The position numbers were made by a program, and so were the translations under genes. A stretch of DNA of 64,000 bases from assembly GCA_021904315.1 (NCBI GenBank), contig CM038925.1:9116501-9180500 (forward strand). Direction: 5' to 3'. The DNA comes from Sphagnum magellanicum. Its lineage: Eukaryota > Streptophyta > Sphagnopsida > Sphagnales > Sphagnaceae. Positions 38,691 through 64,000 of the stretch are shown here, piece after piece. Within the stretch, counting starts at the first letter, position 1, and each line of letters begins with the position of its first letter. Under the pieces are notes generated by a model. That model did no database searches, was not told the DNA's origin, and saw only the letters and a list, made by a program, of their open reading frames with translations.

Positions 38691-39600
38691 TCGATTGTCA
38701 TTTGATGATGGGGGTATGTTGAATGGCGACCAATTTGTTTTTGTTGCCCAAAAAGACATGAAAGGAAGGGCATGAAATGACAATAAAAAACAAGGAGAAG
38801 GGGGGAGCAGGGGAAAGGAAAAAGAAGAGTGGGAAAAAAAACAATAGAAATAAAAGAAAAATATTAGCAAGACTAAACAAAATGTGAAAAGAAAGGGCAA
38901 GAAGAAGAAGGAGGGAAAATTGGGGGTGGGGGGGGGATAAAAGAAGAAGGGAAAAAAAAAGGGGGGGGGGACCAAAGAATAAAAGGTAAAAGCCCAATTG
39001 GTGGGGAAGGAAGAAGAAAATTAAAAAAAAGGTTTTCACCATATGGTAATTGAATTTGCTTGCATTAATTGAATTCGCTCACCCTCATCAAATGGCAACC
39101 GAAATGGATTCAATCACCATTAGATTTGATCGCCACTATTGGATGCCAAACAAAATGGAATATGTCATTGCCATTAGATTTGGTTGTTATTGGATGGAGA
39201 TTGAAAAGAAGGAAAAAGAAAAACCCCTTTCAACTTGTTTTAGTCACTCACAAGGATGGGTGATTAAAAAAAATATGGTCACCATCCAATTGTTACAATT
39301 TCTCATATCGCAATTGAAGTTTTTTAATTGCTAGAAAAGTGAAACATGCCACATGTTTTTGAAAAGCTCTCGACGAAAGCTTTTTAAAAAATATGACAAC
39401 TCCCTTTTTGTGGTGACAAAAATATTCGATCATCATCCAAAAAATAATGACGATAAGCTAGTAATTGAAAATTTCAGTTGCCATCCAAAAAATAGTGACG
39501 ATAGGATGGTGAACGAAAATTTCGATCACCACACCTTGTCCCATTTCGGTTGCCCTCATGTGGCCAAACGGTATGATGACTGAATTTTTTCAATCACCGT
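38691..39600. repeat. Repeat with 'ATGGCAACCGAAA / TTCGATCACCATC' words and an internal purine tract
   Basis: 38,690-38,765 and 39,060-39,600 contain recurring words such as GGCAACCGAAATGG, TCAATCACCATTAG and GTGACGATA, also found at 36,280-36,390. Between them lies a plus-strand purine run (38,786-38,990): AAGGGGGGAGCAGGGGAAAGG, GGGGGTGGGGGGGGG and a final run of ten G. Minus-strand open frames here are an artefact of the phenylalanine/serine/proline-coding pyrimidine strand. Confidence 0.6.
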
Positions 39601-42600: not shown

Positions 42601-43542
42601 AGATTTAAAATATATTTATTTACTTATATACTATATGACTTATGGGGCATTTATTTATTTAGTAGTTTATTTATTAAATGCAGAAATATTACATAAATGT
42701 AAAAACACCCTTACCTTGATTATTAATCATTTGACTTGGTTAATATACCTTGGAAAATATTAAAAATATTAAAAATATATATGCTCTAAACATGTATATT
42801 AAAAATCTTTAAGCGTATATAGTTTAAATATTTTCCTTTCATGTTTAATGTGCACACTTGTGAGGTAAACCAAATATATATTTTGTGGAATTTCAAATGT
42901 GTTGATGGGTTATTAAAATTTGATGGATGATCTTACATTACATGAATTCACATGTTGATTGAGTTCTTAGAATTGTAACAACTTAATGTGTTTTCTATAA
43001 TTACTATCCCTACACATAAGAGGTGTGATATATTTTGTATTTTTTGTGGCATAGAAGGGTGAGTGATTCATGCACGTGAAGGTTGAATAGTCACACAACA
43101 TGGAAATGAAAATGCAGTTTCAAGGATAAATGTAAGGTACAATGGGTCACTTTTGTGATAGAATGGAGTCTTTTTGGGGTACCTTTTGCCCAAATTTGTA
43201 TGGTGGTTAATATGTCCTTGGATATACTTTTTGGGATTTGAATTTAGACCAACAACTGGATTATGAACATTTTTGTCAAATTAGTTTTTGATAAATAGTT
43301 GAAAAGTTATGAACTTTTGAAGTCCAAAAATATTGAATAGTAAGACCCTCTAAAGTATTTTCAAACATAAATAATCTAGTTTAATGAGTCTGCAGGCCTC
43401 TAGCATATGCTATTTTCTTTCTTCAACGTCTATAGACCCTTTTGTGGTTACTTCCTATTGTCAACACTACTGTAGACTTTCTATAGTTGTCTCTTGGCAT
43501 CTATAACCCCTGTAGGCCCTTTGTGACTATTGCTTACCATAT
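39601..43542. other. AT-rich gene-free stretch
   Basis: 40,250-42,900 is extremely AT-rich, dominated by TTAATTAATTA-type words and without a gene. A piece at about 40,448-40,510 (GTGACTACATGTGACTATT then TTTGCAACTATG) matches the left subterminal region of the element at 56,469 and is probably a fragment of the same family. Open frames such as 42,458-42,763 look like chance in low-GC DNA. Confidence 0.55.
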
Positions 43543-44490
43543 GCAACCCAAATTTCTGCCCTTGCCATTAGCACAAGCAAAAAATGGGCAAAAACAGTTT
43601 TGGAAATACAAATTTCATGCAGCCATTTGGAAGTCTCATTATGCACTCATGAATGACCCAATTTTTTTCTTGTTGAAAGAGGGGAGGACAAGGAATTTTT
43701 TTTCCCATTGTTCTTAATGTGTTCCCATAAAGTTTGCAAATCGTTCCCAAGTTCCCAAACTGTTCCCAAATGTGCTCCCCAATATGTTCCCAATAAAAAG
43801 GTGAAAACTAGGGCTGCACATTTCTTTCTATTTTTTCAACTGGGGTCCAAAGAGGTGCTTCAATTGGGGGCATGCCCAATGTTTCAAAAAAATTGCTAAT
43901 GGGCCAATCAATATTGCTCTTTTTAAAAAAAACTTGTGAATGCACCCATGACCTAATTAGTACAAATCACATTATATCATTATGTCCCCAAAATTCTGCC
44001 CCTGCAGTTACCCCAGGCCAAAAATGGTGACAAACAGTTTTGGAAATAGAATTTCTTGTAGCCAATGGGAAGGCTCAACATGCACTCATGAAGGGTGTTG
44101 TTTTTTCCTGTCAGGGGTGGGGTGGGGGAGATTTTTTTTGTTTTTTCTCCTTGTTCCCAATGTGTTTCCAACATCTTCTCATCATGTTCCCCTAAGGTTC
44201 CTCAAGATCCCGAGTTGTTCCTTAAGACGTTCCCAATAGCACTTCAATTTTATCCCATGTGGTTTGCCCAAAGTTCAACTCTCATGTTATATAAATTGAA
44301 AAGTTATGTTATTGGGGAATACATTGGTTTCTATTTTACACATGTGGGTCCAAAGAGATGCGTCCATTGGGGAGTGCATACCATTCCAAGAAAATTGCTG
44401 ATGGGCCAATGAATGTGGCTCTTTCAAAGAAAAATAAAATGTTATGAGCGCACCCATGAACTAATTAATATGAATCACGCTATATTATAC
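43543..44490. repeat. Tandem duplication of a 440-510 bp unit
   Basis: 43,543-43,980 and 43,981-44,490 align in order: TTCTGCCC, AAAAACAGTTTTGGAAATA, ATGCACTCATGAA, several GTTCCCAA words, GGTCCAAAGAG, and GATGGGCCAAT then CACCCATGA. The copies are clearly diverged and differ by insertions, including extra sequence in the second. No coding function is apparent. Confidence 0.75.
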
Positions 44491-47400
44491 TACCCTTTCC
44501 CTAAGGCTATTTGAATTACATAATGTTTGCAATGTTTTGAATTAAACAACAGCTTGCAATATGCCAAAAAAACCAACATAGTTTGTAGGCATACAAATGA
44601 GATAATGCTTAACACCCCTAGTGGCATTGTTTGATGCCTTTTCTTGGTTTGACAAAACAACCCTACATAAATCTGTGTATCTATAACATAGGGGTTGAGT
44701 TGACAAAATGGTGCCTATAACCAAATAGGTCCCAGGATATTTCTATATAATAACTAATAAGTCAAAACCAAGTGGCCTCCATGGCACGTCGTGTAGCATT
44801 TTTGGCCACGGTGCCAGACCCTAGAAAGGACATTGCAAATGTCTTCTCAAAATGAATTATAAGGCATGGGAACAGAACAACTGATCTCATCTACAATCTT
44901 CTATCCAAGTCACTTCCGAAGGTAGTTGCCATTTCGCCCTGGCCTTCTACAATGCTAGGATGTTGTACTGAAGGAATGTGAAGCAACCAAGGACAAGACT
45001 ATATGTGAACCACATAATGTCACGGTCATCTGTGGCCCCTTAAAACACCATATTAAAGGAATGTGAATGTACCAAGGAAAGGGTCATATGTGAACCACAG
45101 ACCCCCTTTCCAACCCTTGAGACCATTGCTTGTGTGTAGTGTGAACTATGAACAATGTTACTTGGCATTGACAAAATTAAAATGGCTGAGTCACTGGTGA
45201 ATGATTCGCATCGACATCGGCAATGGTCACCCAACATGATTGTTGTCTACTTTTTGTCAATGATTGATGGTGACTTTTTGGTGGCTTGTTGGTTTGTAGG
45301 AATTATGCAAATTTGGGCACTGTGTTGAAAGATGAGGGCACATATATCTCCTTTCACATTTGGAAAAGATGACAAGGGAGGGAAACCCATAGAAATTCTA
45401 CTCACATCCATGGTGATTGCTCACCTCCATAGAACCTCGCTTGCAGAGGGCTGTTTGATGGCTTGAAGTTGATGACCACGATCATCTCTTTATTCTTGTC
45501 ATTGTGTTTAAGGTTAAATCTTCCAAGTAATGGGAATTTTTGAATCCCTTATGAAAAAAACATTTCAAGTACCTGGGCACTACACATAACATGCACATTA
45601 TTTGGTGTTATCGACTATTTTTTAAATTTTAAGTTGTCTTGTGTCTTTGCCTTTTGTAGCATACCGTGGAAGAACAACACATAATGGAAGGAGTTTGACT
45701 ACACAGAGTTGTTAGCTTTTAACCAAAAATGACTTGGGCCTAGAAGAGGTTGGCATTGCAACCATGCTTCTGGTCTACCAATGTGTCCACTTATTGGCAT
45801 AAGAAAATTAGGTTGATGTTTATTCCTTGGATTTCAATATATTATTTCAGGTTGTTGTGTTTGCAAATATGAACTGAAGTCCATGTAAGTAGTGAGGCTA
45901 GTAGCAACCACCAACTTTGGGTGTAGATGGTATGGATGGTCAAAATTGTCTACACACATCTCTTGAACAATTGGTTGCATTTGTCCACATTTTACCTTCA
46001 CCCTTGTGGTTTGTTCTTCCTTTTTGTAAACTTCAAATATCATGTTGCCCTCATTAGATGCTCCTAGTCATATGTAAAGGCTGGTTGTGCATCACCAATG
46101 TGGCATGTTGAGTTGGGAACCAAGTTTCAAATGACCATGATGTGCATCACCAACTTGGTTATGACTGTTGAAATCTCTATAGTGTTTTCATTGCTCCATC
46201 TATTACCATCCCCATAACTTGATTTCTACAATATAGTTATGTTACATAAAATTGAGTTGAAGTTAACGGAGACCTAACTTAATTTTTGAGCTTCACAACT
46301 TGTATTATGGGTATAGATGAACTTTTTACAATTGTTCAACAAATTTGTTGTCCTATTAAAGTTCTCCATTGGCAAGGCATGCCATGCACAACTATTTATT
46401 TGGAGTGGTGGAATTTGCATTTTCCTTTTGCCATGTGCATACCCAAGTAGGTTATTTTTCAAGTTTTACTGTACTATTGATTATTTGTTTGCCATCTGGC
46501 CTTCAACGTGTAGATGGTTTTGTCAAGGATGTTGTTCTTGTTTACGAAAGCCAAATATGGCACACAAAGGAATATGATCACTAGTACCAAGGGTGTACTA
46601 CATTTGTGCCACCCAATGATACACCAATAAGCAAAATGGTTTTTGTTGCCACTTATATGCAAGAACCATGAATTACAAGTATGGCATTTTGCTTGAACTA
46701 AAATGGTAGTGTCAATTGTTATTAGATAGCAATGCAATCCAAAACTAAATAAGTGCAACTAATATATGAAATTACAATTGTTCAACCATATCAAGTAGAA
46801 AGATTCCCAACTAGATTTCATGAGGTAAAATGTCACAGGGCTAGTGTTCATTACTATTCATGATTAATGATTAGTGAATTGTTTTGTAGTAGTAGGATGT
46901 TGTGGTTGAGATGGCCTTTGAAGAGGCATTTTTAGTGCCATACTCAATTATGCTTGACCCTAAATCTAAAATGGACAACTTGTAATACTTTATGGAATTC
47001 ATGTGAGTATTGCCTTAGATGTTGGATTTGCTTTTGAAGGTGATGATGGGAACAAAAAAAAGGACCAAAAGAATATATCCAGGTAGCAAATGCATTGTTG
47101 TTTTGTACCTTTCAACCATTCCATGAAGTATTTGGGAAATGTTGATGCTCTTGCACATAGCCCACATTATTTTGGAGCCGTCTTTTCCATTGCTAGATGA
47201 CAACTGATGCATCACTACATGGGGTTTGATAATAATTTCAGCTACCACACATTATTATATAGTTGTTTTGTTCATAAAAAATTCTTAAAAATCCAAGTTA
47301 AACTAAGGTAATTGATATATCCATTGTGAAATCTTGACACATATTGATATTAAAGTTCCAATTCCATGCGGCAATAATACAATTTTATCAATTATTTGCA

Positions 47401-47946
47401 CATCTTGTCAAAAGAAGAGTTTGCATGGTCATGAACTCATACATTGTTATTTATGGGTTGCAAGTATAACACATGAAATATGTCCCAAGTGGATCAATCC
47501 ACCATCATGCTATTAAATTTTGTTAATAATGGTAATGTAAAAAACCATGCAGGCATGTCTAAGCATCATTAGCAACTCCGGAACCCCATATATATTGAAC
47601 TTGTTGGATTAAGCAAAAAAGGGAAACACTCTTAGAAGTGTATGAACTTGCAAGCATTCTATTAATTGTTGGAAACTAAACTGTTAATGTAAGGCACCTA
47701 CACTTTTGTGCCAAATGCTTATACATGGGATTTTAATAAATGTGTTGAATGACATTATGGTATAAGAAGCAAAGATAAGAGCAAGTTTGCAATGAATTAG
47801 ACGAAAACCAAATAACCTTGTACATGACTTTTCATCTATTAACGGTGTAATGTTTTTGCAACAATATGGACTTGTATTGTTCTCTACCATTAATTTCATG
47901 TTTTAACATAAACATTTGTAATGGTAAACTATATTGAAGGCTTCTT
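44491..47946. other. No recognisable gene; probably 5' part of the CACTA element
   Basis: Open frames at 45.8-47.5 kb have no domain I recognise. The sequence is less AT-rich than 40-42 kb. The left end of the CACTA element that carries tnp2 must lie here or further left, but I could not identify it; CACTAGTACCAAGGG at about 46,583 is only a weak candidate. Confidence 0.4.
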
Positions 47947-49800
47947 ATGGCCAATGAGGAAGATCCAATGCTTGAACCTTTGGATGGGTGTCAAATGCAT
48001 GATCCAAAGAGGCAGGCAACATGCAAGGGACAATAAATTGTGGAAGCAAGAGTTCACATGGGCTCAAAAATAGGGGGTGCACAAAATGCGGTGTCAATGC
48101 ACCAAATGTGAGGGAAGGGGCAAATTTATTTTGCTTACAACAATTCGAACCATCTTATTTTAAATGGGAGGCACCCATTATTTAGGGTATGGAAAGGTCC
48201 AAGTGCAATGATGATTCATATGAAAAATGGATTGAAGCAAGTAAGGCCCCATTCGGTCGGATGTAAACAATGGGGCAGATGGTGGACGAAGGTGTGAATG
48301 TGGAGTAGCTTTTGGATGACTTGTTCCCATTGCCAAATGATGAACATGAAGGTGTGGAGGTTACAAGGATGGATCCAAACCAAAATGGCCTAGCAATGGG
48401 TGAATTGGCATTATCCAAGATGCATGTGGGATCATGGTAGAATTAGCAGAAGTGCCAAAGAGCATGCCAATGCAAAACAACCCTAATAGGGTTGAAGGTG
48501 ATGTGGACATGGAAACAACAGAAGTTGATTTATGGGTACTAGTAGCACCCTTGTTGATGACATATCAAATGAAGCCAATTATCTTTAAGATACGTGCCAA
48601 CCAGTATATCTTGGTGTAAAGTGTATAGTCTTAGGGTTAACACTATTGTTGATGAATGCCTACATAATTCATGGCATACAAATTCATTGATAAATTATTG
48701 GCCCTTCTTCATAGGCACTAATTGCCAAAGGATAATTACTTCCTAGCAAGTGTGTACATGGCTAAAACCTTTACCAAAAAGGTCGGGTTGGATTACAAGC
48801 ATATCCATGCATGTGTCAATGGGTGCATATTATTTTGCTGGCAATATGCATCATTGGAGACTTGCCCTAAGTGTGGAGTTGCTCGATTTAAAACATATGG
48901 CAAATCTCATGTTGCAGCCAAGGTTTTGAGGCATCTCCCATTAGCTCCTTGATTGTTCTAGATCTACTGAGCTTCAATAATAACTAAACTCATGACATGG
49001 CATAGTAGGAATAGAAGCACGAACGAGAAAGTTCGACATGTGGCTAATAGTAAGGCTTGGCAACACCTTGACAATACTTGGCTTGAGTTTGTAGTTGAAC
49101 CTAGAAATGTTAAATTAGGGCTAACAATTGATGGAATGAATCCATTTGGGGAGAAAAACAATGCTTGGCCAACCTAGCCAATATTAATCTTGAATTATAA
49201 CCTTCCCCCATGGTTGGTAACAAAAAAATAAATCATGTTATTATCTTTGATAATACCAAGGCTTGAAAGTGTGAAGAACATGAATTTCAATGTCTACATA
49301 GCTCTAGTACTTGAGGAGCTACAAGAATTATGGGGATGAAAGGCCTAGATGTACTTAAACCTATAGGGAGTATGCAGTTTATAATGAAAGCAATATTGAT
49401 GTGGACAATACACAACTTTTATGGATATGGTGTTGTTTATGGATGCCAACACCAAGGCTACAAGGCATGCCTTTTGTGTGGACTAAGAATAGTTAGTTGG
49501 TGGTCCAAAGAGCTAAGCAAAACATGTTTTGAAGGAAGTCATAAGTGGTTGAGGAAAAACCATTTGTATAGGATGCACCCAAATGCAAACATTTCAATGG
49601 TAGAAAGGAGTTGTGAGGGAGGCCACCAACAAAAATAGCTACATAAGTAATAAAAGAAGCACAACATATGGAATAATGGGTGGCTAAAGGCAATATGCTA
49701 GGAGCGGCAAGTTGCCCATCATGAGTGAATGGGATGAAACGTCTATTAGCATTATGGGGGTTACCATATTGGCAAGAGAGACTAGTACATCACAGTCCCT
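47947..49800 (+). pseudogene. tnp2: tnp2 transposase pseudogene, N-terminal and core part
   Basis: The product would be the DDE-type transposase of a CACTA element. After an N-terminal segment with LILNGRHPLFRVWKG, typical of the transposase-associated domain, the frame at 48,722 gives the tnp2 signature: LDYKHIHACVNGCILFCW, then CPKCGVARFKTYGKSHVAAK. From 48,992 it gives MTWHSRNRSTNEKVRH, then EPRNVKLGLTIDGMNPFG, and from about 49,370 WTIHNFYGYG with a cysteine-containing block. A further piece at about 49,735-49,795 reads KRLLALWGLPYWQ. At least three frameshifts and several stops separate these blocks. The cysteine pairs of the HACxNxC/CPKCG zinc-like motif are kept. It is in-line with the parts at 51,874 and 59,298. 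Confidence 0.8.
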
Positions 49801-51873
49801 ATCCAAATGCCATGCTATGTTGTTGAGATGTGTATTCTAGCCACTATAAAATATGTCACGTACATAATGTGCTAAAAACTCCAAAAGGGCTAGTAAAAGT
49901 GGGTTTGTAATGTTGGTACAAACTAATGTTGGTTTCATAATTACTTTTCATCAAACTAGTTGGTCTTGGTACTAGGGTTTCATACACTAACATGACTAGT
50001 AGTTAGGAATATATTAAGAACTTTCAATGAACTAATTTAAACATGGTATCAAGTCCAAGACTATTTTTCAATTGCTATGCATTATAATCATTCGATATTG
50101 CAATTAGTTTGTGGTAGGATCCAATACCACTAAGAATAGTGATGCTATTCAATCTAGTTGTCATTTACTTGAAACATGTTTCAGTGTTTGCAATCCCAAA
50201 TGTTGCATGATTACAATTTTTCTACCCCTTCATAATCTATGCATTCATTGATTGTTGTAATGAATGCTTAACGGGGATTTCATTGAGCTCTCTGCATCCT
50301 ATCACAATTTGTGTGGTTATGTTGGGATCAATGGGTTTGTGTTGGTTAAGCCCATTGATAAGCGTTGGCTTTAGTAAGTTGGACAATGACTTTAATGTCT
50401 TGATTAAAACCTTAATCCATAACTATTTATTATCAACTATTGTCAACTGAACCTTGTTACTCAAGGAAATGGTGCATAGAAAGCCACAAGTTCTATGCTT
50501 GGTTTTGTGGTGTCTGGCACACAAGTTTCAAATTGTCCAAGGGACTATAATGGAATTGATTGATGTTTTATTGAATTTAATGCTTATCTCATTGATGTGT
50601 TTATGTTGAACACTGGTGTGGGTGAGTAGTCATTCAATTGTCATCTAAAATGGATAAAATGTCAATAATTAAAAATAGGTTATTATGTATGCTTCATTTG
50701 TAAGTAGAAGGCATATCACTTTACACCCTTGTTCATTGGAACATGAGGTGTCCATTCACTTACTGATCTATATTTAAAGGTTGTTACCACTGTGTTGTTA
50801 ATTTGTAGCTTTTGATGAATAGCCAAAAAATGCGTTGCAAGGGTGGGTGCATCTATTGTTCTGTTTGAAGATTATTAATTTGGTGTACAAAAGCACAAGA
50901 AAAAACCAATATAAGTTTGGGTTTTTCCTATTGTTGCACTTTTTAACATGCCCCCATTTTAAATGACATGTAAAAGTGATACATTTTGATTGGAAATCTT
51001 GATATCCTTGTTAAATATGACACCAACGACAAATTTTGGTCGGGTTGATGTAAACATTGAATTAATCCTAGTAGCTCCTAGTTTGATCAATAGTCTTTTC
51101 TAAAATTGTCTCTACCAAATTAGTAGGATATTCAGTTGTTTTCGTAAGTTTGCTTACCACCCCTTCTATACCCATATGGTAATGTATTTTGTTATCATTG
51201 ATTAGCATTTTGATTGCACTAGAAATGCCCATTTTTTCCGACAAGTTTGTTAAACCTCACCATATCATTACAAAGCAAAATTGCAAATTGTTGGATATGT
51301 AGGAACATTTTGCAATAGTTAAGATACATTAATAGTACAACTTGTAAAGAACATGCAAGCCTATTGTTGGATAGGATGTCAATAGTTGGAGATAGGTTAT
51401 GTTAGTTCATTTACAACCAAAACCCATATATCAACATTATACCCTTAATACCAATCATGAAGTGTCCAATGCCTTACTAATATGTTCAAGGTGGTTATGA
51501 TTTCCTGTTTTTTTAGCTTTGTAACTTGCCATGGATTTCCAATCAAAGTTTATGTAGGCAAATAAACATTTTTTGCACCGTTACTTTTAGATTCCTCTGT
51601 TTGATGTATAGAAGCATGAGAAAACAAGAATGTGGCCATGGTATTTTATTATGAAGTTGAATAGGATATCCAACCTAGAACTCTAAGGAAGTTCAAAGTC
51701 ATGACATGCTTATGGCACAAAAAGTAGCTAAAAGGCAACTTACAACTAGAGGATAAAACAGTGGCATAATTAGAATTTGGGGAGTACTTATATTGAATTG
51801 GACAATGTGATCCGTACACACCCTCATGAGTCCATTTAGAATTGAATCTAACCAACATGTTTGCATTTGCAGG
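49801..51873. other. Probable tnp2 intron, or a later insertion, with a diverged internal duplication
   Basis: The tnp2 frame breaks after LPYWQ near 49,780 and resumes at 51,874 right after TTTGCATTTGCAG, a very good acceptor. Residues just left of the gap (ERLVHH) and just right (ELLIRHMLD) overlap in the family alignment, so the exact donor is unclear. Inside, 50,640-50,830 and 51,360-51,530 are related (ATGTCAATA..TAGGTTAT, TTCATTT, TTACACCCTT, GTGTCCA), an old tandem copy with a period of about 710 bp. No separate gene is seen. Confidence 0.5.
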
Positions 51874-52512
51874 AACTATTGATTAGACACATGCTAGATG
51901 TGATGCACATTGGAAAAAACATGTGTGAAAACTTGATCAAATTCATACTTGGATTGAAGGACACCATGAAAGTGAAGTGAGACATGGAAATGTGTGGGGT
52001 TCAAGAACTTTTATGGTTGAAATGGGATCCTCAAAGGCTAGGGAAGATTTTCAAACCGGTTGTTGCCTATGTGTTAAAACTGAAAGAGGTAAAAACTCTC
52101 ATGAGCGAGTTAACATCTTTGAAAGTGCCTACAGACTACTATGGTGCTCTAGGAAAACACATCATGGAGAAGAAGTTAGGCTCAATGAAAAGCCATGATT
52201 GGCATGTTTTAATGTGGTAATTCATGCCTCTAGCTCTAAGGGGGCTAATGGATGGTCATGTAAGGTTAAGCTTGATGCAGCTTAATTGAGTGTTTCATAA
52301 GATTTATGGGAAGGTATGGGATCCTGTTGACCTACCAACTTTAAGATAGGATGTAGCAACTACTTTGAGCTTGATTGAATGGGAGTTGCTTGGGGCATTC
52401 TTTGATGTGATGACACATTCAACACTTCATGTGGTTGAAGAGTTGGACATCTATGGGCAAGTGCATACTCATTGGATGTACCCCATAGAATGAGCAAATG
52501 AAAACATTCAAA
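51874..52512 (+). pseudogene. tnp2: tnp2 transposase pseudogene, C-terminal part, cut by a nested element
   Basis: Starts after a splice-like acceptor with LLIRHMLDVMHIGKNMCENL, the family motif LDVMHIEKN. Next come a DMEMCGVQELLWL block, KVPTDYYGALGKHI, then GSMKSHDWHVLMW with the conserved KSHDxHxLM motif, FMPLALRGL, and finally LEWELLGAFFDVMTHSTLHVVEEL and HTHWMYPIE, matching the family's FFDIMxHLxxHLxxE and RWMYPIERY. In-frame stops occur between blocks. The coding sequence ends at 52,512 in ATGAAAACATTCAAA, where another transposon has landed, and resumes at 59,298. Confidence 0.85.
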
Positions 52513-52900
52513 CATTAGTAAAAAACCCCCCCTTTTTAACCAAAAGTTTTCAACTACAATGTCATTTGTTGAATATTCTTGGCATCAACAATGTCTCCAA
52601 GTTGAATTTCCAGTTATGTTGGTAAACAATGTGAAGCATGTTTCAACTAAGGGGTCATTTTTGAAATATTTTTGGCATCTAAGGTTTTTTAGTTGGCACA
52701 TAGTCAAGACATTGACTAGTGTTAAACTATTTTGGATGATAAAATGTAATAGAGGATGGATGAAATATAATCTTGTTTGCAACTATCTTTTTCAACTAAG
52801 TTAAACAACTAATAGGTAACTTTAATTTTATACATATAATATTGTAATATTTATTTAAAATTATGATAACATTAAATTACATGTAAATTTTACTTATATA

Positions 52901-53160
52901 CATGAATGGTTTTTTTTTTGTGTATATAAATATTAAACTTTAATTTCAAAATAAAGTTTAAGAAATTTTTACAAATATGTTAGTACTAATGTTTATGTTC
53001 AATACACATGTAAATTATTATTTCTATGTAGATCATTACAATATATCAAATAATGACACGTAATTAATAATATTGTGCAACTATAATGTTTATTCATTTT
53101 TATACACGTGATATCTTAATATTTGTTTAGAATTATGATAAAAACTCATTAAACACCAAT
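52901..53160. repeat. Repeat A, copy 1
   Basis: Defined by ATGAATGG, a T-run with GTGTATATAAATATTAAAC, then TTCAAAATAAAGTTTAA, TATGTTCAATACA and AATAATGACACGTAATTAAT. The same order recurs from 54,067 and 54,355. Confidence 0.75.
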
Positions 53161-53590
53161 GTACCATACGTCATTGGCCCAAGTTTGAATGCATTCAATT
53201 GAATTTTCCTTCCAAACCCCTTTTGCGCAATTTGTTTGAATTTCCAATAATAATACGTACCCACCAAAAATTCAATAATATTGTTCACATTTTAGGTCTT
53301 AAAATTATCAAATCAACTTTATCAAATCAAACTTAGTGAGGGCTTTCCAACAATACCAATAATGCCCCCAAATTTCAATATAGTTTTCAATCTTGGTTTT
53401 TCGAAAAATTCAATGAAAAAATGGTTCAATAATTAGTAGATTCCACATTGTAGCTCCAAACATTCTAAACCAAGTCGTTGCACCCCTATTCATTGAGAAC
53501 CTTTTGATGATAAATTCCATAACATAACCTAAGACACCGTGGTTTGGGAGATATCATTATGACAAAACAAAACAAATTACCTTCCTTCAT
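53161..53590. repeat. Dispersed repeat family B, copy 3
   Basis: Begins GTACCATACGTCATTGGCCC and ends AAAACAAAACAAATTACC...CTTCAT; follows the order of copies 1 and 2, with many substitutions. Confidence 0.65.
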
Positions 53591-53601
53591 GGATAAATAA
53601 T

Positions 53602-54028
53602 GTAATACGTGTTGTTGGCCCCAAGTGTGAACACATTCAACTCACTTCCCCTTCTAAACCCAATTTGTTGTAATTCGTTTAAATTTTCAACAACAAAATT
53701 CATTCAAAATTCAATATCTTCCACACTTTAAGTATGAAAATTATGAAATAAATTTCATTAAATCTAGTTCAACGATTACTTTTCAACAACACCAAGTACA
53801 CCTTTGGATTCAAGTAAATTATTTATTTATGGTTTTATTAATATTTATTAAGAAAATGGTTCAATAATCAATAATCTTTGCATTCCAACTCCAAATTTTT
53901 TCAACCCAAGTCTGTGCACCCCTATTCATTGTTAGGTTTTCAAAAATATCAATAGTATTATATGAAATAATTTGTTTTGGAAAATTTAAACACAATAGAA
54001 TAAAACAAAACAAATTATCGACCTTCAT
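53602..54028. repeat. Dispersed repeat family B, copy 4
   Basis: Begins GTAATACGTGTTGTTGGCCC and ends AAAACAAAACAAATTATC...CTTCAT; lies in direct tandem with copy 3 at a period of about 441 bp. Confidence 0.65.
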
Positions 54029-54066
54029 TAATAGATTAAATTATGTATAAATTACTTTTGTATAAA

Positions 54067-54760
54067 ATGAATGGTTATGTATGATGCAAATATTTTTTGT
54101 GCATATAAATATTAAAATTTAACTTCAAAATAAAATTTAAAGAATTTTTGAAATATGAGTTTGCAATAATGTAAGTTCAATATATGTAATTCATTATTTA
54201 TTTGTAAATATAATGTTAATTGACAACAAATCAAGTAATGATACATAATTCATAATTTTGTGGAAGTTTAATATGTATGATGTCTTAATATATATTTAAA
54301 ATTACAATAAAGATTCATTAATTATTAAAGTACACGTAAATGTTTTTTGTATACATGAATGATAACATGTATGATGAATTTTTTTGTGCATATAAATATT
54401 ACACTTTAATTTGAAAATAAAATTTTAAAAAATTCTGGAAATAGAAGTCAATTTAATAATGTGTATGTTCAATACATGCATAATTTATAATTTTTATGTA
54501 AATTGAATTTTAGTTTACAACATATCAAGTAAGGATATTAAAGTAATATTTTTTTGGAATATGTTCAATACATGTGTAATTTATTATTTCCATTTATATT
54601 CAATTTTAGTTTACAACATATCAAGTAAGGATATTTTTAAAATATTTTTTTGGAATATGTTCAATACATGTGTAATTTATTATTTCCATGTAGATTCAAT
54701 TTTAGTATACAACATATCATGTAATGATACATAATTAATATTTTTTAGAAATTTTATTTT
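54067..54760. repeat. Repeat A, copies 2 and 3, and a 96-bp tandem subrepeat
   Basis: Copies starting ATGAAT at 54,067 and 54,355 (period 288) carry GTGCATATAAATATTA and TATGTTCAATACATG phrases. At 54,556 and 54,652 the block GGAATATGTTCAATACATGT repeats almost exactly, giving a 96-bp period. Confidence 0.75.
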
Positions 54761-56468
54761 AATTGAATTTTCGCCATAATTTCCAATAATTATTTCATTT
54801 ATTAAAATTAATTAATTAATTAATTATGGCTAAATTATAATAATGTTTAGAATAATTAGTAAATATACTTAATAAATTATCATATAATTTCAGAAATTAT
54901 TTTTATTTAACACTATTATACTATAAAATATTTTATTATTTATTATATCAGGTCATTTAATAATTCCAACAAGTTAGATAAAAATATGAATAAAAACGGT
55001 TAAATAACTAGCTTAACCTAATTATTAGTTGCAATATTATTATTAATGTTGTTGTTGTAATTATATTCAATTATTAATTATCAAAACATTATAATAATTA
55101 ATGTAATTAAAATATCATCTAAAATTTATTATTGAATATTTATATTTGAGTCAATTTTTTTATTATGGAATGTTAATAAAAATTTATAATGAATTTGAAT
55201 TATAAAAAAAATAGTGATAATTAATTATTTACCAGATAAATACATTTAATTTTTGATTAAAAAAAAACTAATCACCATATTATTTAATAAATGATGATAA
55301 TAAAACTATATAGTTTAAAATAGTTGATGAGTAATTACTATAAGTAATTAAAGTAAGTAGTTAGACATAGGTTAAGTAGATTATTAGTTTAAGCCTCTGC
55401 CGAACTAAGCTTAAACTAGTTTGTACAACTAGATTATAACTATTTGAGTTGCAGTGAGGTTACAACTACAATAGACAACAAATGGTATTTTATCATGAAA
55501 CATTTTCAAGTTTTTTGTCATTTCAACACCAAATTGAATGGCTTTTATGTCATTGGAAGCACAAAACGGAGAGCTACAAATGTTCTTGGAACCTTAAAAG
55601 CAAAGGAACAAAGTAGAAAACATAGGAAGATAAAGAGTGATATTTTGTCACTAAAAGCCCTTTGCTTATAGCAACTATATCTTGTTCATTTCTCATTCAT
55701 TTTGAACAATTTGAAAGGCTACAAATGTGTTATCTCAAAATCTATAAAACTTGTTTAAAGTGAAAATTAAAAATAGAATAGTTGAAGAGCTTAAGCTTCA
55801 AAATCATACTGAACATTTATGAAAAAATCCAAAGCACAACCCCCCTCACTTTGAAAAGGCATATCTTGTTCATTTCCATTAGATTGTAGTGTTTTTTACA
55901 AATTTGGATATGCTAGGTGGAGGACTACAATATTGTTTTAAATTTCAAAAGGAACAAACCATGGATAAAAGAGTTATAATGATCCAATATTGTTAAATGT
56001 TCAGTGGTAGGTGTGTTTAGCCTAGGTCACAATTAAAATCTTTATCCCATATTGTATGGTTTCCATTCCATGAATCCAAATTATATAAAGGAGTGGATTA
56101 GATTGTTGGAGAACATAATGAACATGAAAATGTAATAGCCATTTGGGATGAGGCAATAAAAAAAAGTTCAACCTTAAAGGTTAAACCAAATGAAATAGGA
56201 TTTCATTTATTAATTGCCATGTGGTTTAGGTCTAGGCCTAACATATATGCCTAAATCTAGCCCTAACTTAAACCTAAATTAAATGGCCTATGTTTAGGTT
56301 TAACCTAGGTGCCTAGGTTTAAACCTAATCTATGCTTAGGCGCCATGTGGCTTAAACTATTAAGGTGGATGTGCCGTGTGTCATTTAATTAATTGTTAAC
56401 CCCAAAATTTGTGATCATGCCACGTGTCATTTAACTATTCGTTGACCCACATTTTATGAATGTGCCAC
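54761..56468. other. Interior of the nested element; no recognised gene
   Basis: 54,760-55,380 is very AT-rich. 55,380-56,060 is more balanced; a 75-codon frame at 55,444-55,671 and nearby phrases show no known domain, and AAAGCAAAGGAACAAAG and CATATCTTGTTCATTT-type words recur locally (near 55,680 and 55,860). 56,220-56,345 is a CCTAGG/ACCTAAA cluster. GCCACGTGTCA occurs at about 56,418. Confidence 0.45.
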
Positions 56469-56981
56469 CATTAGTAGAAATTGGCCAAAATGTAACCACT
56501 TTATTTGTGACTACATGGTGACTATTAATTATTTGTAATTACATTTGGACATTTTTGCAACTATTTCTTGTGTTGGTCATATTTGCAACTACACTACAAC
56601 TATTTTGCAAGTATTTTGGTGTTCATACTTCCCTGTGAACAACATTTAATTTGGCTTTCATCCAAGAATAACAATTTATGTCCCATTACTTACAAATGTG
56701 ACCCATTTAGTTATAACCCTACGATTCTAATGAATGTTTTATGAATTGTAAAAAATATAATTGGGAGTATTAAGATTTATAAATGTATATGAACAACCAT
56801 ATTACATGTGTATTCAAGTATTATTATTAACATAAATGGCCTCAATATTATGGTTGCAATAATTAGTGTATATTTTGAGTATATTAAAATCTTATGTAAG
56901 ATATTTACGAAATGTATCGTGCCCATATTACAAGTTTATCCAAACTAACTTATTATATTTAAAAAAATTATTACAAATGAA

Positions 56982-56982
56982 A

Positions 56983-57017
<35 letters not shown>
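56982..57017. repeat. (ATT)n microsatellite
   Basis: About twelve uninterrupted ATT units; creates an isoleucine run in a chance open frame. Confidence 0.95.
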
Positions 57018-57018
<1 letters not shown>

Positions 57019-58096
57019 ATATTAAATCCATGTAATAAAAATTTAAATTTCAATATTATCTTTGATTAATTTTAATATTTTAATATTTTATTACATAATG
57101 ATCATAATAATGATGATGATACTAGAATGATCAGAAAAATAATTACTTGATTATTAAAAATATATTATACTATAATAATATTATATTATTATTAAATGAT
57201 TTTCAAATGACTAATGTACTTATTAAGAATTCATTTCTTTTGTATAGAAAATAAATAAATAAATAATAATTCATAGTAGTTCTAACAAGTGACATAATAT
57301 AATAAAAATAATAAATAGCCAACCTAGGCTAGCTACAAATTACATTATTATTATTATAAATAATCAATTATGAAATATGACTATGTTATAATAATTACCA
57401 GGAAATATTGATATATAATTTTAAATTTTTATACTTCAAATTTATAATTAATAATTATTCGATGATTATAATCAATTATTGGTATATAATTTTTATTTTC
57501 AGTTTTATTATTTCATTCTTCTATAATAATTACTATAATAGTTAGAATGGAAATCTAATAAATTATTATACAAATGCAAAAATTATTTTTGAAGGAAAAA
57601 TATACTTATTAAAAATATAAAACATTTATTGTAAAGTTCATAAATAGGTGTAATGAATTCAATAATAATATGAATAATAAAAATAAAATAGTTAACCTAG
57701 GGTAGGTTTTAACTATATTATTATATTTTTTTAAACTAGTATTCAATATTTATAATTGATAGTTAATAATTAACCAATTACTAGTTATTTAAATTGGTTG
57801 ATATAATTATAGTTAATATATAATTTTAAAAAATATTACTACTGTTTATGTAGCTAATAAATTATGTAATATTTAATAATACATAATAATATCATTTATT
57901 CAGTAATCATAGTATATTAACGATTATATAAATAATTAGTTAGTAGATAGTTTATAAAGTGAATTAATTAGTTTCTAATTTAGTTATTAATTAATTAATT
58001 AACAAGTTTATTAATTTATTTATCCATATTTTATCCATTAAATAATTAATAAATTTATTAGTTAATTAGTTAGTTGTCATTTACCTATTTAATTAT

Positions 58097-58247
58097 ATAC
58101 TTTTCAAGATGAGAATGAAAGCCAAAACATATGGGATAAACTTTTTAGTTGTAAGTCGTTTGCAATTAAACATTTTTAGTTGCAAACAATTTACAACTAA
58201 ATAATTTATCTTATATATTTTGGCTTTCATTCTCATTTTGAAATATA
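58097..58247. repeat. Foldback (long inverted repeat), about 150 bp
   Basis: Left arm TTTTCAAGATGAGAATGAAA...GCCAAAACATAT...GATAAA...TTTTTAGTTGTAA; the right arm is its near-perfect reverse complement, ending GGCTTTCATTCTCATTTTG. Arms are about 70 bp with few mismatches and almost no loop, centred near 58,172. It may be a MITE or a palindromic transposon fragment; transcription would give a long hairpin. Confidence 0.85.
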
Positions 58248-59297
58248 TTTTCATATTAAAAAACATGGGCATATGGTATGAACGAACAAAAATGACTTAA
58301 CCCAAAATAAAATATAAATATTCATGTACTTACATCTAATTACCTATTTCCTTAACTTACCTACCTACCTAAGTAGGTATTTGGCCTAAGTATGTAAAAA
58401 GGTTTTATGTAGATAGGTGTTTAGCCTAAATAGGTAGGTAGGTACCTAGTTCAACCTACATACCTTCATATTGATTTAAATTTAATTTGAAAAAATTCAA
58501 TTAATATGCCATGTGAAAAATTTCTATTGCACCACGTGTCACAATTTAAACAATCCAAACATAAAAATTAAATGCCTTAGATTATTTCAAAATAATAATA
58601 AAATATTTTTAATTATTAAGAGTTGGGACATGTGGCAATACATAATTAGTTCCCATTGTTCACCAAAAAAATTGCATCCTAATTGCAAGCAATAATATGT
58701 ATATGACTAGTTGAAGGATGAAAGTGTATTTTGTTGACTTTTTCTTTCATCCAAAATTCGTTGTCGTTTGTGATTAGTGTCATTGTGACATGTCCAATGC
58801 GATTATTAAGATTTTAGTTGCAAATGTTGCTTGCAATTAAAAATTAATAGTAAGGACCAATTGCAAAATGGCCATTTTCTATTAATGCACATGTCAACAT
58901 TGTGAGTGTGCCACGTGTCACCAAACCACTTGCTAAATGTTCGATTTACATAATTGTAACCTAGTTGAAATTATAATTATATTTTTGACTAATGTCATGT
59001 TTAGTTAACAGACGAATTTCATTCATTTTTCAAATGTAGTTGACAACATCCCTCAACTATATTGGTAGAACAATCTTCAACTATAATGGCTATTACTGTG
59101 GTGTTGACACGTGGCATACATTTTCAACTATAATTTCACTCTCGACTTGTACTTTTCGACATTATTAGTTAGCAATTGCAAAAAAATTTCCCAATTGCAA
59201 AAAATAAATTGCAATTATATGTGTAGTTTTCGACTTTGTCTATAGTTGAACAGTAGTTGAAAACGTAGTTGCAAAAGGGGTGGGTGTTCTACTAGTG

Positions 59298-59570
59298 AAA
59301 GGGTATGTATGAAATAAGGCAAAGCCAAAGGTGTCCATGGTGAAAAGGTACATATGTGATGAGACAATCGGCTTTGTCATAGAGTATATACATGAATTCA
59401 AGCATGTTGGAGGTAGAATATGGGATGCAAAGGAAAAATAGGGCATTTGTGGTGAGGTTTTGGAAGGGGTTGCAACAAAGTTTATTCTTGATCCTAATGT
59501 TCAAGATCTGGCACGCCAATATGTTGTGACAAGTGTGGCATGTTTGGTTCCGTGGGTTTAGTAGTGAAGC
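59298..59570 (+). pseudogene. tnp2: tnp2 / DUF4218 region, continuation after the nested element
   Basis: Directly after the AAA duplication the frame gives GYV, a stop where the family has arginine, then NKAKPKVSMVKRYICDETIG and FVIEYIHEFKHVGG. This matches the family's KGYVRNRAxPEGSI segment followed by a conserved alpha-helical stretch. It continues with LEGVATKFILDPNVQDLARQ to a TAG near 59,560. It is the direct continuation of the coding part that ends at 52,512 and proves the gene was one unit before the 6.8-kb insertion. Confidence 0.8.
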
Positions 59571-59870
59571 TGAAACCCTAAACCCTATTGTGAACCTAGT
59601 TTATATTATTGTGACATTTTGTGTTTATAACTTAATGTGGGGTTGCAATGATGGGTAGTGTAGGAAGCATGAGGAAGAAGTAGCTTAGGTCAAAAGGATG
59701 CAAATAGAATTTGAAGGACAATGGCAAAAAGAAACCACCATAGCAAGGAAGCTTACATAGAATTTCCACTAGAGATGCAATAAGTGGAAGACTTGGCAAC
59801 ATGGTTGTGTAAAACAATCTGAACCCAAAAGGCGCGAGGGGGTGACCTTAAAAATGAATATGCAATACAC

Positions 59871-60533
59871 CTTTTAATTCATTAGCAATTTTTTTGCAAT
59901 AAAATACACAAGAATCAAGGCATATGGAAACCATTATATGGTTTTTATAGATACACATGGAATAATAATGGCAACATATGATTCAGGAATGGCATCAATT
60001 TTCTAGAAACAACAATAATTTCGCAAAGGCACAACATTTGGGCTATGCAATATGTGGGGGGTATTTAGGGACATAATATTGTTAGATTATGGGCTTGTAT
60101 CCCAACTAGTAATATTGTTTAAGTGTGATTGGGTTATTAATGGGGTTGACAGATGGGGCAACCCCACATATAAATGTGATGACGACGATTTTTTGTTGCC
60201 GAATTTTTGACATTTAAAAGGACAAGTTGATGAACCTTATGTCTTCCCAGCATAGGTACAACAAGTCTTCTATTTTGAAGAACCTAAAGAACCATGGTGG
60301 AAGGTTGTCCTCCATAAAAAACCAAGGTCTAGACGCATCATGGTAGAAGATAGAAAGGACATTTTAACCCCACCTGATAATGTGATTGGAATAGATGCAC
60401 CACTAGAAATTCTAAAAGTCCCAAGGAACATGACACTTGTAAATGCTATTGAATTAAGTGGAGCTAACTCCATTCGAGCTACTAAAGAGCTACAAATGCC
60501 ATTTGATGATGAAGATGATGGGCCTAACTGAGC
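59871..60533 (+). pseudogene. DUF4216-like region of the CACTA transposase gene
   Basis: A frame from 60,052 reads MWGVFRDIILLDYGLV, then ILFKCDWVINGVDRWG, and after a stop and a TAG, VQQVFYFEEPKEPWWKVVL, with KKPRSRR following. This is the DUF4216 pattern YGVIxEIxELDY, FKCxWVD, QVFYVxDP...WxVVL, a domain found after tnp2-DUF4218 in plant CACTA genes. The upstream part (59,880-60,040) is in broken frames. It ends at a TGA at 60,529. Its function in transposition is unknown. Confidence 0.75.
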
Positions 60534-61589
60534 TACAAGTGTACTGCATAGGTGACATTTGGACCTTTGTGTTGTTAGTTGGTCCTAGCACCAAATTTGT
60601 TTTGCATGAACATGTTTTTCAATAGTGTTTAATGAACATGCTCTTTACCTCCTTACAAACCTTCAATAGTTTCAAGAAAATCCTTATGGGTATGATAACA
60701 CATGAATCATGCATGTAGCGCCTTGTACAACACAAATACCTAGGACTTGAAATTTTTCTAGTTGGTTTTGTATTATAATAGGGCAAATGTAATTTGAAAT
60801 AGTCCCATCATGAGGTCAATGCTAATATGCACATTCTTGGGTAGTGCAACACCCTTGTTGCTTGTGCAGTGTTAGCACATTCACACCTAAACTTTAAACC
60901 AAGTTGCGAAACATTGTAGCCTATGACTAGCTTTCAAACAATGACAAAACAAATAATTGATTAGTTATCTAAAACCAAATGTTATTTAACATGTGAAATT
61001 AGGAGTATGTTAATGATCTATAATAATATACGTAGAATTTGTCATATTGCCAATGAAATTATTCAAATCATAATGTCTAGCAAGCTTATCCATTGACATG
61101 GGGTCATCAAACATTTAGGTGCAGGTTTATTTGTCATGTGAAATTCTTAGAATTGGAGCAAAGGTAGTAAGGGAAGTTGGATATGGCAAAGCACATAGAA
61201 AAGAAGTTGGCCATGGTTTAAAAGATATTTTGCTTCCAATGAAAATTAGGGATACACATAGACAGTTATGGATGTTTTTGTATGGTCCACATTTTTTGCT
61301 AGGAAAATGTGGATATATGGATAGTTTATTGGAAAACCAGTGGTAGGTGCAATTATTAATATGTACGGTTTACAATTATACGTAAATATATGGTAGAAAC
61401 CATCCATTTAATGGTACAAAGTGGTTGAAGTTGCACTATAGTTGCATACATGACCAAACTCCATCCAAAATTCTCTTGTAGTTGCATGTGACAAAATGGA
61501 CAGTTACATGAGACATGTAGTTGTATCTAATTGCAAACACAATGGTTGCATACGACATGATTTCTATTAAAGTAAGTGTGATGTTGTTT
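60534..61589. other. No recognised gene
   Basis: A 75-codon frame at 61,119-61,346 has no recognisable domain. At about 61,430-61,550 several TAGTTGCATG / TTGCATAC words resemble CACTA subterminal repeats and may mark the decayed right end of the outer element, but no TAGTG terminus could be fixed. Confidence 0.35.
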
Positions 61590-63160
61590 TCCAATGGAGT
61601 TCAGCCTGTCAAATTTGAGCAACTAAAGCAAGCCCTTGTTTTTGTTCCCTTATTAGTGCGACGAGATTTCAGCAAAGCTTTTATCTTGGATGTAGACTGG
61701 TTTGCAAGGGAGTTAGGGTTATTTTATCCTAGAAAGATGGAAGGAAGGAATGTGTGATTGCCTTTGTCACCAAAGGTTTGTCCCTTGTTCAGAAGAGGTT
61801 CTCCCCATGGAAGGGCAATGTTATGCCTTAATTTGGGGGATAATGCACTTCTGCCAATTTTTATATCGCAACCACTTTACCTTGAGGACTGATCACAAAT
61901 TGCTAAAATGGCTAGCTATAATTTTTGATGCATATGGGCAAAGGGGGCGTTGGATTGACATGTTGCAAGATTTTAACTTTAAGATCTTAAATCGATCGCG
62001 CTTTAAACATCTAAATGCAGATGTGCTCAGTAGAAACCCTGTAAACAAGGCAAAAGAAGATGAATATTTCTCCCAAGAAATCCAAGATATTAGATTATTG
62101 CGGGAAATGGGTATATGGACATGGATTGGAAGGAGGAGTATTCAAAGTACCACCACATTTACCCTATTCATGGTTGAAACCAATGAAATGGCTGTGACAA
62201 AAGGAGCTAATGAACATGAAACATGAGGAGATGCAGCTCCAAACATGGATAACAAAAAGAAGTTCCAACAATTACCTTTGAAAAGGAAACAACTAGTGAT
62301 AGGAAAAAAGGTGTGTTGGGAGTTGGTTGTTGAGGCTTAATTAATGGTGGATGATAAATTGAGTGGAGGAAATGGACATGACATTAATAATGACATTGAA
62401 GATGATCTCGATCATCTAAAGGTTCTAGATATTTGGGAAGGCAAAAATTGTTTACATATGTTGTAAACAAGATGTTCAATTGAAGATGTAATAGAGGAAG
62501 AATTGGTAAGAATTTGGAAGAGGATTCAACACTACCATTGGCAAGTGGACTAGTTGATTTTCAAAAATTTGATTATGTTGTAGCTTGGGGAGAAAAAAAG
62601 ACATCATTGCAGATTTACATCAAGAAATTGGTCATGTTGGAAAAAATAGGACTTTGGCAAAAATGTGTAAGAATTCTATTAGCATAACCACACGAAGCAA
62701 GTGTGTTCGATTGTTAAATCATGTAAATAATGCCAACTAGCATGACACGCTTGGAGTTTGAGGTCTGATGTGGAAGATTTAAAAAATGTCTTTATTTGTG
62801 ATTTGTTTTATAGAGTAGCATTTGTTATTGTAGGACCTTTCCTAGAAACCAATCAAAGTAACAAATACATTTTGGTTGTGATCGAACACTATTCGAAGTG
62901 TGAAGCTAAGGCTATGTAAGATCATATAACAATTACGACTACCAAGTTTTTCAAAGAAGACATCATCTGTAGGTATGGGTTTTGAAATATATCCTTACTA
63001 ACAATGGTGGTGAATGGTTGGTAAAATTTGACAATTTGTGTAAGGTGTACGGTATACAACATTAATATACTACACTAAAATAGCCTTAGTGTAATGGGAT
63101 GGTCGAAAGACTAATTAAGACAATCAAGCATGGTATCACTGTTATGTCTACACTGTAGGA
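61590..63160 (+). pseudogene. pol: Ty3/gypsy pol remnant: RNase H and integrase
   Basis: The RNase H part begins VKFEQLKQALVFVPLLVR, DFSKAFILDVDW, continues in a second frame with DGRKECVIAFVTKGLSLVQK (about 61,735-61,808), then in a third with GQCYALIWGIMHFCQFLYRN, FTLRTDHKLLKWL and HLNADVLSRNP. So there are at least two frameshifts. Where gypsy elements have K-E-C-L-A the sequence has GQCYAL, a loss of the catalytic Glu. The integrase part shows EIGHVGKNRTLAKM and a CxxxxxC..CQ remnant (62,610-62,745), then GPFLETNQSNKYILVVIEHY (about 62,836), TNNGGEWLVKF with Asn in place of the usual Asp, and NGMVERLIKTIKHG with Glu kept. Upstream reverse transcriptase is not seen. It is dead. Confidence 0.85.
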
Positions 63161-64000
63161 CAATACAAACGTTGATGGCGTACCTCAACATGGCAGGTTG
63201 TTGGTGGAATTTATGAATGGGAGTGCAAAAGAACTTATTTAATGAATTGATTTTCCAAAGTTAAGTGCTGAAGTTGTTTTGTTGAAGAAGTTGGTGTTGT
63301 GATAGAATGTGGTATGATAGTTTTATGTGTTCAAGTACTCATGCTGTACTGGACTTTAAAGCTTTTCCACTAAGCACTAAAATATCAGGACAACAAATGT
63401 AGGAACTACAACATAATAAAAAAAGTGAGTTTGGTGAAGGTGATGAAAGATAATAGGGGACCAAAGAGTTGCTAGTTTGTGAGTGGCATCTAGTGAAAGA
63501 GTGCAAAAATTGCAACTATCTAAGTCATTTGAATTTTGAGAATCCATGGGCTGTAAGAGACCTAGTTGATTCGGAACTTCGGGGATATGGGATTTTGCAT
63601 TGAGTGAGAATTTTAAGGAGTGTGGGGTTGCTATTATGTGTCAATGCTTAAGAGAATAGCTTTTCAAAATCTGCCTAAGCTTAAAAATGGGGAGTGGGCA
63701 AGTTTCTCACTCAAGTGAGTCACTAGATGCCCAACAAAGACCATGATAGCTACTGAGAGAGAGATCCAGGGAGATTTGATTCACTAGAACGCTTCAATTT
63801 GATGTTGTTGCAACTACTTTGTTTAGGCTGATATTGTGGATGTTTTGGTCTTGTAATAAACATTTGGATAGATTCTAGAAGATGACAAAGGTTTTCCATT
63901 TGTGATGATATTATGTTTGTTGAAAACTTGATGCATTTAGTGAAAATTGAGTCATGTTGACCAATCTAATTCAATAGTATATGTGGGATTATTTGGTCCT
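63161..64000. other. Downstream part of the gypsy remnant; no separate gene
   Basis: 63,200-63,600 keeps a faint protein-like character in broken frames and is probably the 3' end of pol. 63,590-64,000 could belong to a 3' LTR (it includes a TAATAAA at about 63,856), but no start, end or partner copy is visible in the window. Confidence 0.35.

Follow-up and report, generated by a model that had tools for sequence, protein, structure and literature searches.

A 64,000-nucleotide stretch of the Sphagnum magellanicum genome (the window) contains three nested cut-and-paste transposons of the CACTA (En/Spm) type: a host element with a tnp2 gene, an outer insert within that gene, and an inner element within the outer insert. 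We put the probability of this reading at roughly 97%. The host came first, then the outer insert, and the inner element last. A preliminary description of this DNA, which had proposed one CACTA element inside the tnp2 gene of another, is supported but was incomplete. For both insertions, we established the ends, the duplications, the empty sites, the family membership, and the order. The genome searched for copies comprised 438,994,042 bases.

The second coding block of the host gene is split by the outer insert:

48023..49862, + strand: host tnp2, first coding block, decayed (Pfam Transposase_21, PF02992, and tblastn)
51870..52512, + strand: host tnp2, second coding block, left part (DUF4218 profile 4-64, 33.3 bits; tblastn; paralogues)
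59298..59558, + strand: host tnp2, second block, right part (DUF4218 profile 70-105, 14.9 bits alone; tblastn)
59626..60519, + strand: host tnp2, third coding block (DUF4216, PF13952, at about 60,103-60,309; tblastn)
61370..61572, + strand: host right subterminal repeats (TAGTTGCA) and eroded right end (likeness to tnp2-carrying relatives)

The tblastn query was a 674-amino-acid stop-free fragment of a genomic relative, and it places the coding blocks in order; the left part of the second block is 70% identical over 219 amino acids, with the match running to 52,526. Matches to Transposase_21 lie in two frames, one covering about 49,028-49,336 (92 bits) and the other about 49,342-49,578 (45.1 bits). 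The cut-off for DUF4218 is 27 bits, and DUF4216 scores 30.0 bits, just below its cut-off of 30.6. The order of the domains (Transposase_21, DUF4218, DUF4216) is that of a CACTA transposase. As far as the part of PMC8978399 drawn on here describes it, the CACTA (En/Spm) transposase gene contains TAD, Transposase_21, DUF4218, and DUF4216. Our site resembles that description in the last three domains of the host and in the CACTA ends, 3-bp duplication, and subterminal repeats, but the transposase-associated domain was undetected in the host by Pfam across 43,101-52,512 (43,101-48,050 on both strands and 48,001-52,512 on the + strand).

The right end of the host element, at 61,572 (terminus 61,560-61,572), is eroded; its reverse complement reads CTTTAATAGAAAT... 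The region at 61,370-61,572 is 69-71% like the regions adjoining the right ends of tnp2-carrying relatives. The left end was not located. We did not accept as the left end a stretch at 40,411 that looks like a CACTA end: the preceding AAT differs from the TAA after 61,572, and although 23 bases match the host's right subterminal region at 87%, the match to the inner family is better (74 bases at 77%). Pfam scans of 36,001-40,420 and 43,101-48,050, on both strands, found no other half of a neighbouring Gypsy-type fragment and no transposase-associated domain, and a SAUGI match there (14.3 bits versus a cut-off of 27) was taken as chance.

The outer insertion is confirmed. Its features are:

52510..52512, + strand: AAA target-site duplication, left copy (sequence)
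52513..59297, no strand assigned: outer insert, apparently a non-autonomous CACTA element, 6,785 bp in total (terminal inverted repeats, genome copies, no domain)
52513..52557, + strand: left terminal inverted repeat (comparison of the terminal inverted repeats)
54464..54746, no strand assigned: tandem repeat within the outer insert, 2.9 copies of a 96-bp unit
59253..59297, - strand: right terminal inverted repeat (comparison of the terminal inverted repeats)
59298..59300, + strand: AAA target-site duplication, right copy (sequence)

CACTA-type ends are present (in the window, CATTAGTA on the left and CACTAGTAG on the right). As the preliminary description had it, the 45-bp inverted repeats at 52,513 and 59,297 agree at 33 of 45 positions in a fixed register, and AAA is present at both flanks. 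The chance of a 33/45 match is 7e-9 (binomial with local composition), a figure that ignores the number of possible places. We also scanned the window, without a target, for CAYTA...TARTG pairs whose 3-bp flanks are identical. Over the 18 terminal bases compared, this pair matches at 14, which is unremarkable (pairs with 14 matches arise 0.55 times per shuffle). The proof rests on the copies elsewhere in the genome and not on the inverted repeats alone. Another pair in the window, at 32,131-38,132, ties the outer pair in that scan. A gapped local alignment of the insert's 400-bp ends picked a subterminal stretch instead of the terminal repeats; we do not use it as evidence because its score was reached by 9 of 2,000 random window pairs.

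The subterminal repeats that had been reported are also there. CAACTA/TAGTTG occurs 6 and 7 times in the 500-bp bins at 52,500-53,000 and 59,000-59,500, which are the two highest bins of the window (mean 0.78). Within the insert's terminal 400 bp, CAACTA occurs 6 and 8 times (both strands); 1,000 random 400-bp pieces with starts within 1-52,000 have on average 0.47 copies of CAACTA plus CGACTA, and at most 4. The whole insert contains no Pfam domain (six frames, E 0.1), in agreement with the statement that it codes for no transposase.

When the insert and one AAA are removed, MKTFKGYV is read across the junction, which includes the KTFKGYV that had been claimed, and the joined flanks score 74.1 bits against DUF4218, versus 41.0 and 20.7 apart. 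The score of the joined flanks drops to 70.1 bits if the extra AAA is kept. The insert is carried by none of the 12 tnp2 paralogues that we fetched from the 39 non-self matches scored, and all 12 read continuously over the site. Alternatively, the 6.8 kb might be intronic to tnp2 or represent an old indel in it; this gene has two further non-coding gaps (49,862-51,870 and 59,558-59,626). Given the CACTA ends, the AAA duplication, the dispersed copies with the same ends, and the absence of a gap at this site in the 12 paralogues, we consider this extremely unlikely.

The genome copies bear out the transposon insertion and its ends. Both refuting conditions named in the preliminary description, displaced ends in other copies and tnp2 paralogues that carry the insert, were checked, and it withstood them. 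At the right end, we scored 40 of the 228 first-look candidates, not selected on the end: 35 of 39 non-self matches have their last base at the equivalent of 59,297, three fall short of it by one base, and one falls short by two. At the left end (40 of 229 first-look candidates scored), of the 39 non-self places, 25 have a piece whose first base corresponds exactly to 52,513, two have a piece that begins later, and 12 are without a reported piece. Across the genome we found the exact 19-base outer end 60 times and a reversed control pattern 0 times.

We fetched 20 copies of the outer family from the 25 with a complete left end, so it is by selection that all 20 start at the same base. Eighteen begin with CACTA (16 of these with CACTAGTA) and two with CATTA. 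Within 10 kb of the left end, the right end is complete in 12 copies, incomplete in two, and missing in six. The 12 copies with both ends have a 3-bp duplication that is perfect (10 copies) or has one mismatch (2 copies), and eight of them are 4.6-5.1 kb long. Once the inner element and one CAC are subtracted, about 4,363 bp of outer insert remain, and at about 4.36 kb it is near the common size of its family. None of the 20 fetched stretches has a tnp2 match at E 1e-4, but the eight copies without a complete right end within 10 kb may exceed the stretch that was searched. The outer family appears to be non-autonomous; we could match a transposase neither to it nor to the inner family.

The preliminary description treated the 6,785 bp as one element. 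It is actually two, as 56,469-58,887 is a separate, later insertion:

56466..56468, + strand: CAC target-site duplication of the inner element, left copy (sequence)
56469..58887, no strand assigned: inner element, a second CACTA, 2,419 bp, inside the outer insert (CAYTA/TARTG pair scan; own genome-wide family)
58888..58890, + strand: CAC target-site duplication of the inner element, right copy (sequence)

One pair of ends and one duplication do enclose all 6,785 bp, and deletion derivatives are common among CACTA families, so a single transposon whose internal part (56,469-58,887) was deleted from other copies would be conceivable. However, the inner stretch has ends of its own (CATTAGTAGAAATTGGCC / CATTAATAGAAAATGGCC), which agree at 16 of 18 bases and, with the CAC duplication, form the best CAYTA/TARTG pair of the window; 16 matches were reached by one of 60 shuffles. 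None of the 12 outer-family copies has the inner element. All 12 align straight over the joined site, and bases at the very junction are present in 10, which keep the insertion site and show the target once. In 10 of the 12 copies, other parts do resemble pieces of the inner element's interior (short, AT-rich, 67-78% identity), but these matches fall away from the insertion site, and we take them as composition. The inner stretch also has its own family, with more candidate places than the outer ends: 1,055 and 1,120 first-look candidates versus 229 and 228 (these are candidates, not counted copies). Taken together, a single transposon is scarcely credible.

In the family of the second insertion, 32 of 39 non-self matches to the left end share their first base, and 33 of 39 matches to the right end share their last. 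Family members are 2.4-3.0 kb long in the copies that we looked at. Among four relatives, the left ends are CACTA (two), AACTA (one), and CCCTA (one), and one of the four end pairs has equal 3-bp flanks, perhaps from wrong pairing or decay of the ends. CAACTA occurs 3 and 2 times in the inner element's terminal 400 bp. We found no recognisable coding in this copy (no Pfam domain in six frames at E 0.1).

On this reading, the starting host was a large element with a tnp2-type transposase. A member of the outer family entered its DUF4218-coding exon, duplicating AAA, and a member of the inner family, the second and more abundant one, later entered the outer insert, duplicating CAC. Without its own transposase, the outer family would have to borrow one in trans, and the whole inner family is probably non-autonomous as well. 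This movement in trans is probably driven by a tnp2 transposase through recognition of CACTA ends and subterminal repeats. All three elements are probably immobile today. The preliminary description stated that the relative age was visible; this holds for the order of events, but whether the host gene was already dead at insertion cannot be told. The terminal branch lengths (0.093 for the outer insert and 0.214 for the host) do not show that the host died earlier, because the host's branch includes its time as an active element.

Because the outer insert lies in a host tnp2, it might be that non-autonomous CACTA elements favour tnp2 targets and so destroy their own supply of enzyme. This is one site, and none of the 20 fetched 10-kb outer-family stretches (with 200 bases of left flank each) has a tnp2 match. 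Also, CACTA elements make up 6.8% of the genome according to the portion of PMC9946827 consulted, so some insertions into tnp2 would be expected by chance. We think that such a preference is very improbable. In a broader version, a few tnp2 lineages would drive several non-autonomous CACTA families that are unrelated to one another in their interiors, acting across family lines, and the families would destroy these genes and so limit their own supply. Short ends and subterminal motifs of the CAACTA/CGACTA type would be nearly all that these families have in common with the tnp2 elements; one such family has more than 1,000 candidate places in the genome. This version is a little less improbable, but we would still bet heavily against it.

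In the excerpt of PMC9946827 on which we rely, CACTA elements rank first in abundance among the classified repeats of Sphagnum. The corresponding portion of the report on wheat chromosome 3B (PMC4290129) counts 30,199 nested insertions, stacked in as many as 8 layers. As there, we see transposons within transposons, in several layers and with CACTA elements taking part; unlike that account, our case is in a moss, all three layers are CACTA, and both empty sites come from paralogous copies. The pvCACTA1 elements of common bean, a non-autonomous family, are described as small in the text seen of PMC4938662. Our families are similar in being abundant, with CACTA...TAGTG ends and 3-bp duplications, but they differ from that description in size (outer, mostly 4.6-5.1 kb; inner, 2.4-3.0 kb) and in their AT-rich interiors. 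In the literature on nested CACTA elements and on Sphagnum CACTA elements, we recognised no paper for this site, and we do not claim that there is none.

The nest is well resolved yet ordinary, as such nesting is common in plant genomes, and a triple CACTA nest raises no new question. Two abundant CACTA families of a moss now have exact ends, duplications, and both empty sites, and exact ends with empty sites aid repeat annotation and dating. An apparent transposon of 6.8 kb can be two insertions, which is a trap for repeat libraries.

We found that the 6,785-bp insertion (52,513-59,297) in the host, a larger CACTA element with a tnp2-type transposase gene, comprises two elements: an outer CACTA insert that is flanked by AAA, and within it a second CACTA insertion (56,469-58,887, the inner element) that is flanked by CAC. 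The preliminary description had proposed a single CACTA element in another CACTA element's tnp2 gene. Our analysis confirms its observation of the ends, the AAA duplication, and the site in tnp2, but there are really two elements. We also support its interpretation and add a third layer.

The boundaries of the outer insert read AAA then CATTAGTAAAAAACCCCCCC on the left, and GGGTGGGTGTTCTACTAGTG then AAA on the right. Its 45-bp ends are identical at 33 of 45 positions in a fixed register, and CAACTA/TAGTTG occurs 6 and 7 times in the 500-bp bins at the two ends, which are the highest counts in the whole window (the mean is 0.78 per bin). The terminal inverted repeat taken alone is modest evidence, because pairs matching at 14 of 18 bases arise in shuffled windows (0.55 per window when every CAYTA...TARTG pair flanked by identical 3-bp sequences is considered) and one further pair in the real window equals the insert's 14-of-18 score. 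A six-frame search of the whole 6,785-bp insertion found no Pfam domains at E 0.1.

Features of the host tnp2 gene (window positions; Pfam scores)
Host, two frames: Transposase_21, 92 and 45.1 bits
Host left flank: DUF4218 left piece, profile 4-64, 33.3 bits
Host right flank: DUF4218 right piece, profile 70-105, 14.9 bits (below cut-off)
Downstream in host: DUF4216, 30.0 bits (slightly below its cut-off)
48,023-49,862: coding block, collinear with stop-free fragments of a genomic relative
51,870-52,512: coding block, same; the match extends a few codons into the outer insert
59,298-59,558: coding block, same
59,626-60,519: coding block, same

Joining the DUF4218 pieces after removal of the insert and one AAA gave a score of 74.1 bits, versus 41.0 and 20.7 for the separate pieces and 70.1 if the second AAA was retained. 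(In the typed pieces, an X bridged a frameshift left of the junction.) We also searched the genome (438,994,042 bases in 31 contigs, with the window at C19:9,116,501-9,180,500) with the host's left flank. This gave 63 candidates; 40 were scored, and 39 of those are non-self. All 12 paralogues that we fetched from these 39 are uninterrupted across the junction; nine of the matches reach the junction base and three end 22 bases before it. The host has one extra base immediately left of the junction, which is in none of the 12 paralogues. The host tnp2 gene is decayed, and several stops are present. Its blocks at 49,862 and 51,870 are separated by about 2.0 kb, while the corresponding fragments of the relative are only about 140 bp apart; the gap may contain another insertion, or the intron here may be longer.

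The outer insert's ends recur across the genome. For the left end, 40 of 229 candidates were scored; among the 39 non-self places, 25 have a piece that begins exactly at the equivalent of 52,513, 2 start later, and 12 have no reported piece. For the right end (40 of 228 scored, 39 non-self), 35 matches stop at the equivalent of 59,297, 3 stop one base before, and 1 stops two before. Exact matches to the 19-base end CACTAGTAGAAAACCCCCC number 60 genome-wide, versus 0 for the reversed control. We fetched 20 copies from the 25 places with the exact left end: 14 have a right end no more than 10 kb away, and in 12 of these it is complete. These 12 copies are 2,789-5,814 bp long (8 are within 4,588-5,059 bp), and the 3-bp duplication is perfect in 10 and has one mismatch in 2. 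At E 1e-4, tnp2 was matched in none of the 20 fetched stretches. A tree of 13 copies has terminal branches of 0.051-0.117 and short internal branches, as after a single burst and then silence; the window's copy is 7.7% diverged from the majority of the other copies.

A scan of the window for CACTA-type pairs ranked the inner element first, not the outer ends: 16 of its 18 terminal bases pair, with CAC at both flanks, and a score of 16 was attained in 1 of 60 shuffles. This stretch is missing at its place in all 12 aligned outer-family copies. Ten of the 12 have, at other positions, matches of 67-78% identity to short AT-rich parts of its interior, which we attribute to composition. With its flanks joined and one CAC removed, the alignment spans the junction in all 12 copies, although L011 and L027 lack roughly 25 bases surrounding the site, so that the site itself is visible in 10. 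The inner element also contains a hairpin (58,097-58,248) with 74-bp arms, 85% complementary, a spacer of 4 nt, and TAGTTGCAA motifs.

The inner element is a member of its own separate family. Its ends gave 1,055 (left) and 1,120 (right) first-look candidates; with 40 scored for each, 32 of 39 non-self matches begin at the equivalent of 56,469 and 33 of 39 stop at that of 58,887. Four end pairs that we checked are spaced about 2.6-3.0 kb apart; just one has equal 3-bp flanks, which counts against the family. Judging by the window copy alone, this family would be non-autonomous. A CACTA-end-like stretch at 40,411-40,504 (77% identity to the inner left end over 74 bases) is probably another decayed relative.

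The host's own left end was looked for and not found. On the right, 61,377-61,569 matches the right-end region of a tnp2-carrying relative (69%), and in a genome search with 61,370-61,600, three of 39 non-self places sit 6-13 kb from tnp2 matches (C20, C18, and C8). The relatives' ends read CACTACTAGAAAT... versus CTTTAATAGAAAT... in the window, so we placed the host's putative right end, eroded, at 61,572. Directly after it is a decayed Gypsy-type fragment with an RT_RNaseH domain (61,573-63,700), into which the host may have inserted; no other half of this fragment was found in 36,001-40,420 or 43,101-48,050.

The window has other repeats. A dispersed repeat lies at 7,888-8,242, 26,986-27,344, and 53,664-53,952; the second copy is 84% like the first and 67% like the third, which is situated within the outer insert. 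At 30,369-31,966 there is a long, diverged tandem array with nested 15-, 30-, and ~122-bp units around ATGGCTAAACTAACC.

Non-autonomous CACTA elements are mobilised by a transposase from elsewhere that recognises their CACTA ends and subterminal repeats. The outer insert and the inner element would have moved in trans in this way; such movement is established for the superfamily, according to PMC8978399. Two tnp2-carrying elements in this genome are almost identical (99.8% over 11.9 kb), with right end CACTAGAAGAAAAC and subterminal motifs CGACTA and CAACTA. The outer family's end, CACTAGTAGAAAAC, resembles CACTAGAAGAAAAC without equalling it, so we infer recent mobility, in this genome, of tnp2 lineages of broadly this type.

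Nested transposons are common: wheat chromosome 3B is reported to have 30,199 nested insertions in up to 8 layers (PMC4290129). In the 439-Mb assembly of Sphagnum divinum, CACTA elements are given as 6.8% of the genome and as the most abundant repeat type after unclassified repeats (7.8%; PMC9946827). A genome with that much CACTA DNA should hold many cases of CACTA within CACTA, and this site is a tidy, well-resolved example of nested transposons.
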